From Candidatus Pacearchaeota archaeon (GTDB lineage: Archaea; Nanoarchaeota; Nanoarchaeia; Pacearchaeales; GW2011-AR1), in the NCBI GenBank assembly GCA_002690445.1, contig NZER01000333.1, positions 1 through 7,132 on the forward strand: a stretch of DNA of 7,132 nt, written 5' to 3'. The notes below the pieces were generated by a model, which did not search any database, was not told where the DNA came from, and worked only from the letters and a program-made list of their open reading frames with translations. Positions 2,330 through 7,132 of the stretch are shown here, piece by piece. Position 1 is the stretch's first letter; the number at the start of each line of letters is the position of its first letter. The position numbers were made by a program, and so were the translations under genes.

Positions 2330-2667
2330 AATATTTAATATTGTTATTATTATTGATACCAAGCGTTCAAGCTTTAGGCGGATCAGGGAGCAGCGAGAAC
2401 TATGAGGCTTATACTCAAATATCAGCGGGGGGGACTAACACTACGTCCGAGAGCTATATGAATAATTTACTAGTAGGAGAGATCGCGGGGAATATGACTT
2501 CAGAGAGTTACGATAATTGTCTAGGTTTTTGGTGTATCTCAGAACTCCCTCCGACTGTAGCGGAGTTCATAACAGGAGTTAAACAGTATTATCCCGTAAT
2601 ATTATTAGTTATGTTAATGTTTATAGGAACAATAGGGAGGAAACAAAAATCGACGGACTCAGCATAG
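2326..2667 (+). CDS. Exported SENY/SESY-repeat protein with C-terminal membrane anchor, 113 aa
   Basis: A classic signal peptide (MKYLILLLLLIPSVQA|LGG) is followed by three copies of a short motif, SENYEAY, SESYMNN and SESYDNC, separated by Gly/Thr-rich linkers. Similar Ser-Ser-x-x-Tyr repeats occur in surface proteins of many small-genome prokaryotes. Residues about 88-104 form a single C-terminal membrane helix, followed by GRKQK, which would stay in the cytoplasm. The protein should therefore project a short ectodomain outside the membrane or virion envelope. The start overlaps the previous stop as ATGA and is preceded by AAAGGGAGA at 2308-2316. A run of seven G occurs in the second linker. 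No function can be assigned beyond a surface component. Confidence 0.82.
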   Translation: MKYLILLLLLIPSVQALGGSGSSENYEAYTQISAGGTNTTSESYMNNLLVGEIAGNMTSESYDNCLGFWCISELPPTVAEFITGVKQYYPVILLVMLMFIGTIGRKQKSTDSA

Positions 2668-2681
2668 TAACAGGGATCGCA

Positions 2682-3020
2682 ATGACAGTATTTTTATTAT
2701 TCTATCTAGCTTTTAATATAGAGAAAAATCACCCATTTTTAAGAGTCTTAACTATATTCGCGGGAGTATTTACTTTATTACTAATTCCGTCGCTTACTTT
2801 AAACCTAGAGAATGACTGCGCCATTTTAAACGACGGGACTTATAAGTGTTATGACAGCGCAGGAAATGTAGTCGTACCCTCAGAGAGTACAGTAGGAACT
2901 CAATTTCTTAGCGCTTATCTATGGTATATACGGATTTTCGTAGCTTATCTTTTTATTTATTATGGATATATGGCTCTATTATGGTTACAGAAAAGCATAA
3001 GACTACGGAAAAATGGCTAA
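2682..3020 (+). CDS. Small membrane protein with one Cys-containing outer loop, 112 aa or longer at N-terminus
   Basis: The ATG at 2682 starts inside a hydrophobic helix (TVFLLFYLAF), which is an awkward start for a membrane protein. The same frame is open upstream through residues IDGLSIVTGIA, overlapping the previous gene, but offers no ATG, GTG or TTG. A helix follows at residues 20-42, then a polar loop with NDCAILNDGTYKC, whose two Cys could pair. The last helix is at residues 78-102, ending in basic RLRKNG. GGGA at 2673-2676 is a possible weak ribosome site for 2682. A stronger GGGAGG lies at 2635-2640, which would suit an AUC at 2649. It overlaps the following gene by 8 bases. Family not recognised, virion or envelope membrane protein inferred from context. 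Confidence 0.75.
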   Translation: MTVFLLFYLAFNIEKNHPFLRVLTIFAGVFTLLLIPSLTLNLENDCAILNDGTYKCYDSAGNVVVPSESTVGTQFLSAYLWYIRIFVAYLFIYYGYMALLWLQKSIRLRKNG

Positions 3021-3201: not shown

Positions 3202-3685
3202 AAAAGGTAATGTACCTCTAGAGGCTATTATAGGAATGTTTCTTCTATTTGTAATAGCTATCTTTTGGGTGGTATCTTCTTTAGTCTTTACAGAGATAAC
3301 TGAGTCTATGGTAGAGGACGGAGACCTAGATCCTGTAGCTAATGCTAGTATAACCAATCTCGAGAGTAGATTCCCTGAGACTTTCGACGGAGCTTTTGGA
3401 CTTATATTTATTTTATTGTGGATCGCTACGCTAGTCTCAGCGTTCTATATTGATACTAACCCCGTAGTCTTTATTATATCTATGACATTATTAATAATCT
3501 TATTAGTCTCCGCAGGATTCTTAGGGAATGCTTTTTCTGAAGTAATAGAGGATAGTTTAATCTCTTCAGCAGGAGATAAATTTCCTATTATGAGTTTTAT
3601 TATGCAACACTTAGTAACGTTTATACTATTAATTGGGGGAGGGGTAGGATTAGTTTTATACGGAAAATCTAGAGGATCAATATGA
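3173..3685 (+). CDS. Four-helix membrane protein with class III-like KKG N-terminus, 170 aa
   Basis: The N-terminus reads GSKKG|NVPLEAIIG followed at once by a hydrophobic helix. This matches the archaeal class III (pilin/archaellin type) signal: basic residues, Gly, then Glu at +5. Helices lie at about residues 17-39, 74-93, 96-118 and 143-165. A polar loop (residues 40-72) carries one NAS sequon (about residue 58). Whether a pilin peptidase cuts it is unknown, because multi-helix proteins are not usual pilins. The ATG has no clear Shine-Dalgarno and sits in an A-rich tract, so translation may be coupled to the upstream gene. Its stop overlaps the next ATG as ATGA. Probably a virion or assembly membrane protein, family not recognised. 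Confidence 0.82.
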   Translation: MNGLKKLGSKKGNVPLEAIIGMFLLFVIAIFWVVSSLVFTEITESMVEDGDLDPVANASITNLESRFPETFDGAFGLIFILLWIATLVSAFYIDTNPVVFIISMTLLIILLVSAGFLGNAFSEVIEDSLISSAGDKFPIMSFIMQHLVTFILLIGGGVGLVLYGKSRGSI

Positions 3686-5859
3686 AAAAATTAAATATAA
3701 AATTAATCTTAGTATTTATTTTACTAATTAATATGAGTCTAGTATTAGCCTCGCCGCCATCATTACCCTCTACAATATCACCTATTAATGGATCTTCATA
3801 CTTCTCCAATCCTACTTTATCATGTACAGGATCAACTGATCCAGAGAGTAATGAGATTAATTATTCAATATATTATGCTGAAGGTATAGAACATGGATTA
3901 ACAGTAGATAGAAGATTATATTATAAATTAGATGACGGAGCAATATGGAAAGATGAAAGAAACCAATATAATGGATCAGTAACAGGTGATGTAGTTAATA
4001 CTACAGGAAAACTTGGAAATGGAGCTTACTTCACAGGTGTAGACGATTTTGTGACACTCCCTAATAACGCAGGATTTAATATAGATTCTAATTTTACCAT
4101 AAACTTATGGGTTAAATATGGATCCTCTGGAAGTGATTCAAGACAAGTATTCGAGCCAGAGTCAGGAATGTATAGTCCAAGAGTATATGAGGGTGATGCA
4201 GGTAATGACGGTAAACTCATAGCATATATAGGTCAATCAGGTGGTACAATCACTACAGGATATACTTCTAGCACTTACAATGATAATAATTTCCATATGG
4301 TTACTTATATCTGGAATACAGATACAAATACACTAAACTTACGTATTGATAGTACAGCAGAAAGTTTATCTGCAGTAGGATCACCAACACAAATCAGTAG
4401 TAGTTTAGATTTCGGTTGGGGTGGAACAGATGACTCGGGGAGTAATTGGCTCGGTTATATGGACGAAATAGGAGTCTGGAATAGAGCATTATCAGCTCAA
4501 GAAGTAGCAGATTTATATAACAGTAGTTATGCACTTTATTATGATAACTTTGATGATACAGGTTTAAATCTTTTATCAAATAATCAAAGTGGATCAACAA
4601 CTTTTGACATGGAATCATTAGGTTTAACTTCTGCATTTTGGAATTGTAAATCATGTGATAATAATTCAGAATGTTCATCATTTACAGATTTAATACAAGT
4701 TAACACGATTAACTTTTCTGAGTGTGATGGAGGAAATATAGCTCAGCAATTTAACCTCCTTAATGAGACAGCAAGTCAAGATCTAGGGAATTATACTCAA
4801 GACTGCGCATATACTTTAACGTCTGGTTACGATACTAAAACTTATACTTTTGCTCTCGCGGGACAGACTTTTTATTCATTTTGTTTAAATCCTCTCAATG
4901 TATCAGTTACTTTAAACGGTTTCTGTCAATATGACTCAACTCTGTCAGGGTATAGTTATGCTAGACAGTATTATTTTGATGATGTTATTCTAGACGGAGG
5001 TACTCTTAGAAATTATAGTTTTTATCAATTAGAGGACGCATTAAGTACGGCGATAACCTTTTCAGTAACAGAGGCAGGAGTCCCTCTAGAAAATAGGATC
5101 ATTCAGATCCAAAGATACGACATAGCGACAGGAAACTATAGGACTGTTTCTATGCTTAAAACAGACGCTAATGGTCAAGATATAAGCTATTTAGAGCAGA
5201 CTACGGCTTTTTATAAAGTCTGTATATTTGAAGTAGGAAACCCTAATCCTGTTTACTGCTCTAGTGCTTTCCATTTAACTAGCGATAGTTACTCAATCGC
5301 CTTAACTACTTCGTCTGCGTTGTCATGGTCTAGTCTAGTAGGAGTAGCTCATAACTTAACTTTTGATAGTGGATCGGATCAATTCGAGTTAACTTATTCA
5401 GATCCTAATGAAAAAACGACTCAATTCTGCTTAGATGTTTTTGAGGAAAGATTTACTCAAAGAGTTTTAGTTTCTAGTAATTGTTTAAGCGCAAACTCTG
5501 GAACAGTTCAGACTAGCGTAGACGCTATCAACGGGACTACATACTCTGCTTTTGCTTTCGCTACTCTATTCACTAATACTAGCGGACAATATGTCGCTGA
5601 TAATTTCTTACTAAGTCAGATAACTCATAGCTACGGAATGAGCGAGGCTTTCCAAAATAACGGATTATTCTTTATATGGTTATTAGTAGCCATATTTAGC
5701 TTATTAGCCTTTTACTCTCCGTCCTTAGCTTTATTATTAGCTCCTCTCCCTGTAATATTCGGATCTTTCTCAGGGATTATAGCTATACCAATGGGGACGG
5801 CTTTCGCTCTATATTTAGGATTTATTATCTTAGCCGTAATAGTTGGAGGGAAAGAATGA
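3682..5859 (+). CDS. Large membrane-anchored surface protein with LamG-like lectin module (spike candidate), 725 aa
   Basis: Residues 1-23 are a signal peptide (VLA|SPP). Residues 26-65 start an Ig-like domain (ISPINGSSY, then LSCTGSTDPESNEINYSIYY). Residues about 78-287 are a LamG/concanavalin A-like lectin domain, with YYKLDD, GNGAYFTGVDDFVTLP, FTINLWVK, FHMVTYIW and YMDEIGVWNRALSAQEVADLY all in the usual order. Residues 288-345 resume Ig-like sequence ending in FWNCKSCDNNSECSSF. From 345 to 650 are Cys-containing beta domains, one resembling a carboxypeptidase-regulatory fold (VTEAGVPLENR...TDANGQ). Residues about 660-720 hold three membrane helices. Many NxS/T sequons suggest glycosylation. 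This architecture fits a receptor-binding glycoprotein on a virion or cell surface. AGAGGA precedes the ATG, and the gene overlaps both neighbours by four bases (ATGA). Confidence 0.88.
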   Translation: MKKLNIKLILVFILLINMSLVLASPPSLPSTISPINGSSYFSNPTLSCTGSTDPESNEINYSIYYAEGIEHGLTVDRRLYYKLDDGAIWKDERNQYNGSVTGDVVNTTGKLGNGAYFTGVDDFVTLPNNAGFNIDSNFTINLWVKYGSSGSDSRQVFEPESGMYSPRVYEGDAGNDGKLIAYIGQSGGTITTGYTSSTYNDNNFHMVTYIWNTDTNTLNLRIDSTAESLSAVGSPTQISSSLDFGWGGTDDSGSNWLGYMDEIGVWNRALSAQEVADLYNSSYALYYDNFDDTGLNLLSNNQSGSTTFDMESLGLTSAFWNCKSCDNNSECSSFTDLIQVNTINFSECDGGNIAQQFNLLNETASQDLGNYTQDCAYTLTSGYDTKTYTFALAGQTFYSFCLNPLNVSVTLNGFCQYDSTLSGYSYARQYYFDDVILDGGTLRNYSFYQLEDALSTAITFSVTEAGVPLENRIIQIQRYDIATGNYRTVSMLKTDANGQDISYLEQTTAFYKVCIFEVGNPNPVYCSSAFHLTSDSYSIALTTSSALSWSSLVGVAHNLTFDSGSDQFELTYSDPNEKTTQFCLDVFEERFTQRVLVSSNCLSANSGTVQTSVDAINGTTYSAFAFATLFTNTSGQYVADNFLLSQITHSYGMSEAFQNNGLFFIWLLVAIFSLLAFYSPSLALLLAPLPVIFGSFSGIIAIPMGTAFALYLGFIILAVIVGGKE
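3913..4542 (+). other. LamG-like lectin module with distinct codon use, nested in an Ig-like domain
   Basis: This stretch encodes residues 78-287 of the 725-residue protein. It uses mainly ACA, TCA and GAT codons, whereas the flanks favour ACT, TCT and GAC. The tetramer CTAG, frequent elsewhere, appears only once between about 3755 and 4783 (at 4268). The compositional change extends a few hundred bases past the lectin module on both sides. A recently acquired cassette is the simplest reading. Domain limits are by eye. Confidence 0.6.
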
Positions 5860-6672: not shown

Positions 6673-6680
6673 AAGGAGGA
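6673..6680 (+). promoter_or_regulatory. Strong Shine-Dalgarno AAGGAGGA, fixes start at 6685
   Basis: AAGGAGGA ends four bases before ATG 6685. The in-frame ATG at 6703 (MNKKG) has no such site, so 6685 is the preferred start. This is the best ribosome binding site in the window and implies strong translation. Confidence 0.75.
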
Positions 6681-6684
6681 AAAA

Positions 6685-7053
6685 ATGCAAGATAGAGCAA
6701 AAATGAACAAAAAAGGATTTGCTCTAGGAGATATACTACCTATTGCGCTTACATTAGTTGTCGCAGGTATCGGAGAGATCTTTTAATTATAATAGATTAT
6801 AGATCCCGATTTTGCCTACGGACTAAATGTAATGGGCGACGTAAAGTCAGACATGACTGCTGATTCAACTGAGTATAATGCAACCGCAAACGCAATAACA
6901 GGAGTAGCTAAATTACCAGAGAAATTTCCACTAATCGTAACAGTAGTAATTAATGAGAGTTGTTATGCCTGACAGGATAGATTCTATTAACTATAGGTTG
7001 CTGCGATTTTAATAGGAATTTTGACTAGGTATTTATTAGTTAAATACTCTTAG
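6685..7053 (+). CDS. Two-helix major capsid-type protein, interrupted by two BHB introns (spliced 94 aa)
   Basis: Coding exons are 6685-6775, 6812-6948 and 6997-7053, joined to 285 bases (94 residues plus TAG). Unspliced, the frame meets stops at 6784, 6790, 6793, 6970, 6988 and 6994 and yields only 33 residues. Spliced, the protein has a class III-like start (MNKKGFALGD at residues 7-16), helix 1 (about 17-37, with VVAGIGVAYGL across junction 1), a polar loop with an STEYNATANAI motif (49-59) and KLPEKFP (64-70), then helix 2 (71-90, VTVVVAAILIGIL across junction 2) and a basic end. Two helices around an NAT loop with Pro before helix 2 is the pattern of fusellovirus VP1-type capsid proteins, which line the lipid-associated shell. 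The join restores both helices without an odd residue, strong evidence against a pseudogene. It has its own promoter and terminator. Family match is by pattern only, and splicing is not shown experimentally. Confidence 0.85.
6776..6811 (+). other. Intron 1, 36 nt, canonical bulge-helix-bulge
   Basis: Outer helix AGGTA (6765-6769) pairs with TGCCT (6813-6817), one U.G pair. Central four-base helix TCGG (6770-6773) pairs with CCGA (6806-6809). Bulges are AGA (6774-6776) and TTT (6810-6812), three bases each. Inner helix GATCT (6777-6781) pairs with AGATC (6801-6805), closed by an AT-rich loop. Cutting after the second base of each bulge joins G6775 to T6812 and creates a GTT Val codon, giving GIG-V-AYGL in frame. 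The intron is phase 1 and contains three stops. This is the textbook substrate of archaeal tRNA splicing endonuclease. Confidence 0.88.
6949..6996 (+). other. Intron 2, 48 nt, relaxed bulge-helix-bulge
   Basis: Outer helix ATCGTAACA (6934-6942) pairs with TGCTGCGAT (6999-7007), eight of nine pairs with one A.C mismatch. Central helix GTAG (6943-6946) pairs with CTAT (6991-6994), one G.U. Bulges are TAA (6947-6949) and AGGT (6995-6998). The second has four bases, hence relaxed. Inner helix TTAAT (6950-6954) pairs with ATTAA (6986-6990). A small hairpin (TAT-CCT/AGG-ATA, 6964-6979) sits inside. Cutting after the second bulge bases joins GTA to GTT in phase 0, giving VTVV-VAAI. The intron holds three stops. 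Relaxed folds are cut by the broad-specificity endonucleases of some archaeal lineages. Confidence 0.82.
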
Positions 7054-7114: not shown

Positions 7115-7132
7115 ATGGGAAGAGAAACAAGA
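7115..7132 (+). CDS. First codons of a further gene, cut by window end
   Basis: The ATG is preceded by a good AAAGGAGA site and opens MGRETR before the window ends. It follows the terminator hairpin, so it starts a new unit. No TATA box is certain in the short AT-rich gap. Nothing can be said of its function. Confidence 0.55.

Follow-up and report, generated by a model that had tools for sequence, protein, structure and literature searches.

The gene at 6685-7053 (+ strand) of the window, by which we mean the whole analysed stretch of 7,132 bases (GC 0.36, with the + strand carrying nearly every gene), likely encodes the main coat protein of a DPANN-type archaeal virus and is interrupted by two stop-bearing inserts, which we predict with good confidence to be removed from the mRNA as bulge-helix-bulge (BHB) introns. 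Its frame opens with an ATG at 6685, directly preceded by AAGGAGGAAAAA, and closes with a TAG at 7051, with six earlier in-frame stops (6784, 6790, 6793, 6970, 6988 and 6994) that are all confined to 6776-6811 (36 nt) and 6949-6996 (48 nt). When 6685-6775, 6812-6948 and 6997-7053 are joined, an intact protein of 94 aa is obtained, which reads MQDRAKMNKKGFALGDILPIALTLVVAGIG / VAYGLNVMGDVKSDM...FPLIVTVV / VAAILIGILTRYLLVKYS, the slashes marking the two junctions. Thus, the reading of the frame from 6685 and the joining of these three segments bear out the initial annotation, which had placed all six stops in two short segments and expected a 94-residue protein after excision of both. The features are as follows (identifiers beginning with P designate related database proteins).

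6675..6680, + strand: purine-rich GGAGGA just 5' of the start codon, which we take to be a ribosome-binding-type sequence (sequence reading)
6685..6775, + strand: exon 1, residues 1-30 and base 1 of codon 31 (alignment with relatives)
6765..6817, + strand: canonical BHB of intron 1 (pairing search, constrained fold)
6776..6811, + strand: predicted intron 1, 36 nt, with stops 6784, 6790 and 6793 (stops, offset test; reading ...VAGIGEIF-stop also found in P0124)
6812..6948, + strand: exon 2, remainder of codon 31 through residue 76 (alignment with relatives)
6933..7008, + strand: relaxed BHB of intron 2 (pairing search, constrained fold)
6949..6996, + strand: predicted intron 2, 48 nt, with stops 6970, 6988 and 6994 (stops, offset test; intron-2 peptide also found in P0122)
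6997..7053, + strand: exon 3, residues 77-94 and stop TAG 7051 (18-residue peptide identical in P0001, P0002, P0003, P0107 and P0123)

Uninterrupted relatives and position of the junctions

At E<=1e-3, a set of 5.8 billion proteins yields 225 candidates, 190 of which qualify as relatives of the joined protein, and the junction counts given here rest on the 120 of these 190 that were listed. The best relative, P0001, is uninterrupted and identical at 91 of 94 positions, the three differences (residues 47, 50 and 57) all falling in the loop 47-57. Across junction 1, 119 of the 120 listed relatives align without any gap over 12 residues, the exception being P0107, which begins past this junction, and across junction 2 all 120 do so. 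Intron-less homologues lining up through both junctions, which the initial annotation had proposed as a check, are therefore at hand. Both stretches are insertions because the relatives encode the gene without interruption, and removal of 6776-6811 and 6949-6996 restores the protein that these relatives encode.

The exact excision points were examined by keeping each insert length fixed and shifting the excision from -9 to +9 bases (19 offsets). At junction 1, offset 0 is the only one of the 19 that yields a residue present in the relatives, with a hybrid codon G/TT encoding V31; residue 31 is I in 41, L in 37, V in 23, M in 14, T in 3 and A in 1 of the 119 relatives, and neighbouring offsets give F, D or E, found in none of them. 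At junction 2, the exact protein results from offsets 0 and -1 and a variant with I77 (5/120 relatives) from offsets +1 to +3, and a BHB core of 4+5 bp exists at offset 0 only. The protein comparison thus fixes the cut at junction 1 to a single nucleotide position, which coincides with the BHB cut (past base 2 of each 3-nt bulge), and at junction 2 the protein-derived cut is compatible with the BHB cut. The proposal of two BHB-type introns in one gene is supported by these results, as homologues span both junctions and junction 1 matches the BHB cut to the nucleotide.

These positions also bear on translational bypassing, which is known from T4 gene 60 and from the byp elements of some yeast mitochondria and in which ribosomes would hop over the inserts of an unspliced RNA. 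Both inserts have lengths (36 and 48 nt) that are multiples of 3, a property counted against splicing, which has no such need, and they are hairpin-forming and contain in-frame stops, as would suit bypassing. However, ribosomes must resume at a whole codon, which gives E or F at residue 31 (0/119 relatives) where splicing gives V, and at junction 2 no landing codon matches the take-off codon GTA (GTT being preceded by TAG). We therefore regard bypassing as very unlikely.

BHB folds, host enzymes and known introns

Archaeal tRNA-splicing endonuclease (EndA) cuts junctions that lie in bulges flanking a 4-bp helix. At its splice sites, insert 1 shows the archaeal arrangement, a 4-bp helix with a 3-nt bulge on either side, composed of an outer helix of 5 bp (6765-6769/6813-6817), a central helix of 4 bp (UCGG/CCGA, 6770-6773/6806-6809) and an inner helix of 5 bp (6777-6781/6801-6805), with the 5' bulge at 6774-6776 and the 3' bulge at 6810-6812 (order: outer, TTT, central, AGA, inner). 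A 5+4+5 bp geometry for a 36-nt insert occurs at one of 7,032 placements in the window, which is insert 1 itself, and for inserts of 18-100 nt at 2 of 584,569 placements, insert 1 among them. When the geometry is lowered to 4+4+4 bp, 8 of 579,506 placements for inserts of 18-100 nt are found in the window, i.e. seven besides insert 1. Because of these eight placements, the BHB motif alone is weak evidence, and its evidential weight is its coincidence with the protein junctions defined by homology. Pair probabilities at insert 1 are 0.91-0.99 for the central and inner helices and 0.33-0.74 for the outer helix, and the fold is more stable than most shuffled sequences (z -2.34; 4 of 200 shuffles fold at least equally well).

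Insert 2 has a central helix of 4 bp (GUAG/CUAU, 6943-6946/6991-6994), an inner helix of 5 bp (6950-6954/6986-6990) and a 5' bulge at 6947-6949, and this core of 4+5 bp is found for a 48-nt insert at 4 of 7,032 placements in the window, the insert 2 cuts included. Contiguous outer pairing is restricted to 1 bp in the strict geometry; the constrained fold shows a 4-nt 3' bulge from 6995 followed by helices of 2 and 7 bp with a mismatch between them, forming an imperfect outer stem that reaches 6933/7008. This structure lies 1.0 kcal/mol above the minimum, with central pair probabilities of 0.40-0.45, and stability beyond that of shuffled sequence was not found (z -0.51; 59/200 shuffles at least equally stable). 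The BHB of intron 2 is thus relaxed and weaker than that of intron 1. Of the two canonical folds initially announced, that of insert 1 (5+4+5 bp) stands, and that of insert 2 has to be described as relaxed, with a non-canonical outer helix and a 4-nt 3' bulge.

In the computed folds, base pairing between the 5' exon and the 3' end of each intron can place both junctions in bulges flanking a 4-bp helix; according to the proposed mechanism, host EndA would then cut both bulges and host RtcB would join the exons, so that the capsid protein would be made only from spliced mRNA. Translation of the unspliced mRNA would end after 33 residues. The host order was inferred from the nearest named relative, which lies on a contig (L001) titled 'Candidatus Pacearchaeota archaeon isolate Bin_285' (genome G001), and such an assignment, made from one metagenome bin contig, can be wrong. 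Within the order of this genome, EndA (PF01974) was found in 82 of 91 genomes and RtcB also in 82 of 91 (81 over its cut-off), G001 being included in both cases; as positive controls, PF01974 was recovered in the four archaea and RtcB in nine of 14 genomes.

Hardly any BHB introns are known in protein genes. In a 2020 paper, cbf5 is presented as the only reported example besides the new mRNA substrate of that paper (PMC7714728). The cbf5 introns, as described in PMC2738675, are 16-44 bp long, some being of 36 bp and frame-neutral, with a border between codon letters 1 and 2 as in intron 1 here. The likeness extends, within the same source, to a short intron in a protein gene of Crenarchaeota with a BHB at its borders, gained and lost between lineages. 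In contrast, cbf5 is a cellular housekeeping gene whose splicing was demonstrated, whereas the present case concerns a likely viral structural gene with two predicted introns and a DPANN-type host, and intron 2 (48 nt) exceeds the cbf5 range given in that text. The HVO_1309 mRNA, according to PMC7714728, also carries BHB sites cut by EndA, but these are located in the untranslated leader of a cellular gene. Finally, putative 12-bp introns, for which splicing was proposed, have been described in protein genes of the rudivirus SIRV1 (Peng et al. 2004, as related in PMC2738675 and PMC4390879). Like the present inserts, these elements are putative introns of archaeal virus protein genes that appear and disappear; they differ in being 12 bp each, whereas the inserts described here bear stops, so translation through them would fail. 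The novelty claimed at the outset has to be narrowed accordingly, as putative introns in an archaeal virus had already been proposed for SIRV1 (PMC2738675); searches of the open-licence PMC literature listed no viral capsid gene reported to contain a spliced BHB intron. The two insert lengths, 36 and 48 nt, are each divisible by 12, the size in bp of the SIRV1 elements, which we mention as a curiosity and not as evidence.

If the proposed splicing is true, viruses can hand one step of virion production to the tRNA-splicing enzymes of their host. Gene callers would miss such a gene, and databases carry only fragments of it (P0107, P0122-P0124).

Related alleles on other contigs

Four short database ORFs (P0107 and P0122-P0124) probably represent related alleles, as judged from their protein readings; two of them, P0124 and P0122, were found by searching with readings that continue past an exon end into an insert. 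The P0124 ORF, from a JGI contig of 966 bp and with 3 member sequences, has the reading MTECLNIS...MQDRAKMNKKG...VAGIGEIF and then stops, as the window does at intron 1; its exon 1 and first intron codons are the same as those of the window and its leader is different. P0122 (ENA, 682-bp contig, 4 members) contains exon 2 continuing into INESCYAWQDRFY, which is the intron-2 reading of the window with UGA read as Trp, this Trp occupying the position of a TGA in the window. Over the 39 aa of its exon it matches the uninterrupted P0001 exactly; the sources of both would be near-identical viruses differing by intron 2, and insert 2 therefore looks recently gained or lost. P0107 (57 aa, 14 contigs, the longest of 13,872 bp) and P0123 (57 aa, 1 contig) have exons 2 and 3 already joined and start at Met38, which suggests alleles with intron 1 alone, although a different upstream break could yield the same ORF. 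A further candidate, P0121, which is listed with no source, was not counted as independent evidence; it reproduces what the window itself encodes from 6796 when UGA is taken as Trp, and departs from it solely in the first residue, for which the window has TAG.

These recurrences bear directly on the less favourable explanations of the stops. An assembly or sequencing artefact is hardly credible, as the same exon-intron readings are found elsewhere, with a different leader in P0124 and with an exon variant in P0122. The gene could also be a recently broken pseudogene, or belong to a defective genome, with two unrelated insertions and no product, as might be thought from the six stops, the existence of uninterrupted relatives and the weak fold of insert 2. 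Such decay is improbable in view of a flanking protein that loses nothing at either insertion, of a junction 1 placed on a canonical BHB to the nucleotide, of an exon 3 that is identical to P0001-P0003 past the stops and of the recurrence of each insert on another contig.

With removal as BHB introns as the preferred explanation, the database ORFs suggest that the introns may come and go among closely related viruses. A bolder and more tentative extension is that the two mini-introns move into and out of the capsid genes of otherwise near-identical viruses (alleles with none, one or two introns); no smaller mobile BHB introns might then be known, and they could act as a host-specific switch of virion production, the coat protein depending on the tRNA-splicing enzymes of the host. 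Intron gain and loss is an old question for archaeal mRNA introns, and, since alleles with and without inserts seem to coexist, it could be studied here in natural virus populations.

Nature of the protein and genomic setting

The product of the split gene is likely a coat or main capsid protein, as judged from its size, helices, sequon, gene order and tandem copies. Hydropathy of the 94-aa protein peaks at residues 11-39 and 62-94, and a structure model of P0001 (mean pLDDT 74.8, pTM 0.44) contains helices at 14-43, 50-63 and 65-93. It is thus a small protein with two hydrophobic helices, a trait of spindle-shaped virus capsids that it has in common with the major capsid proteins of SSV1 and His1, and an N-A-S/T sequon is present in all 120 listed relatives. 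Two hydrophobic helices and suspected N-glycosylation sites are reported for spindle-virus capsids (PMC10866085). However, profile comparison by hhalign, which covered SSV1 VP3, His1 ORF21 and ORF25, gave no similarity (E 0.35, 0.39 and 0.27, respectively). Similarly, Foldseek with this moderate-confidence model gave no match at E<=0.001 among 97 PDB and 304 BFVD matches at E<=10; the PDB sequence search gave no match below E 0.14 and P0001 received no PHROG assignment. The spindle-virus capsid type attributed to this gene from the start is a putative assignment, based on the small size, the two hydrophobic helices and a gene order shared with two contigs of archaeal genomes, and in these comparisons neither profile nor fold matched a known spindle-virus capsid.

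The introns could be real in a gene for a membrane or minor structural virus protein rather than for the main capsid protein. This we consider rather unlikely: the lack of profile or fold matches to known spindle-virus capsids would agree with it and two hydrophobic helices equally fit other small membrane proteins, but the protein is small, strongly conserved and has numerous uninterrupted relatives, three tandem copies are found on another contig (L079, below), and the sequon is in 120/120 listed relatives, in line with the N-glycosylation sites suspected in spindle-virus capsids (PMC10866085).

Several longer relatives (P0102, P0106, P0108 and others) possess translated in-frame inserts, which were rejected as introns since their place is the loop around residue 45-50, away from both junctions. 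In P0102, P0106, P0108, P0110, P0114, P0115 and P0119, these translated inserts contain Cys and are situated between the hydrophobic helices, where they perhaps form a surface-exposed variable region.

Returning to the main capsid protein as the likely product, L001 encodes a relative of it (58% over the best-matching segment) whose gene shows no interruption before the contig ends, in a gene order similar to that of the window, with three aligned pairs at 30, 33 and 28% identity. L079 (genome G010, from the class of G001) carries at 1501-2560 three tandem capsid-like genes flanked by genes for a 100-aa protein and a basic 117-aa protein, which corresponds to the order 101-aa gene, capsid-like gene and basic gene of the window. 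The third of these tandem genes has a long translated loop insert (168 aa). The search of genome contigs for the capsid-like protein returned one relative, L001, and sampled genomes with a relative amounted to 2/378 in the class (G001 being one of them) and 1/200 in the order (G001 itself). No relative was obtained by three protein or alignment scans of the viral collection, where the exact intron patterns had 0 matches, and phage and plasmid records gave no match at 1e-5.

The protein encoded at 3682-5856 (725 aa) has a hydrophobic C-terminus and a Laminin_G_3 domain (PF13385, E 1.2e-17), the sole Pfam match above cut-off in the ten scanned window proteins, and is likely a lectin-like adhesin, with a counterpart of 897 aa on L001 (28% identical). 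Scanning the viral collection with it gave 76 loci; among the matches listed, at least those ranking high are confined to the widespread lectin domain.

The ends of the window read through in frame, 7115-7132 joined to 1-363 encoding a single Arg-rich basic protein of 126 aa, so that the window may represent a complete 7.1-kb circle. No exact terminal repeat of at least 6 bases was found at its ends and none of the scanned window proteins was recognised as a replication protein; contigs with close relatives of the capsid-like protein reach 12-14 kb. Lastly, the 112-aa ORF at 2640-3020, called from ATG 2682, stays open upstream, where the residues IDGLSIVTGIA are similar to those with which the 123-aa gene product of L001 (5909-6280) begins, and translation may actually start from a non-ATG codon at about 2649.
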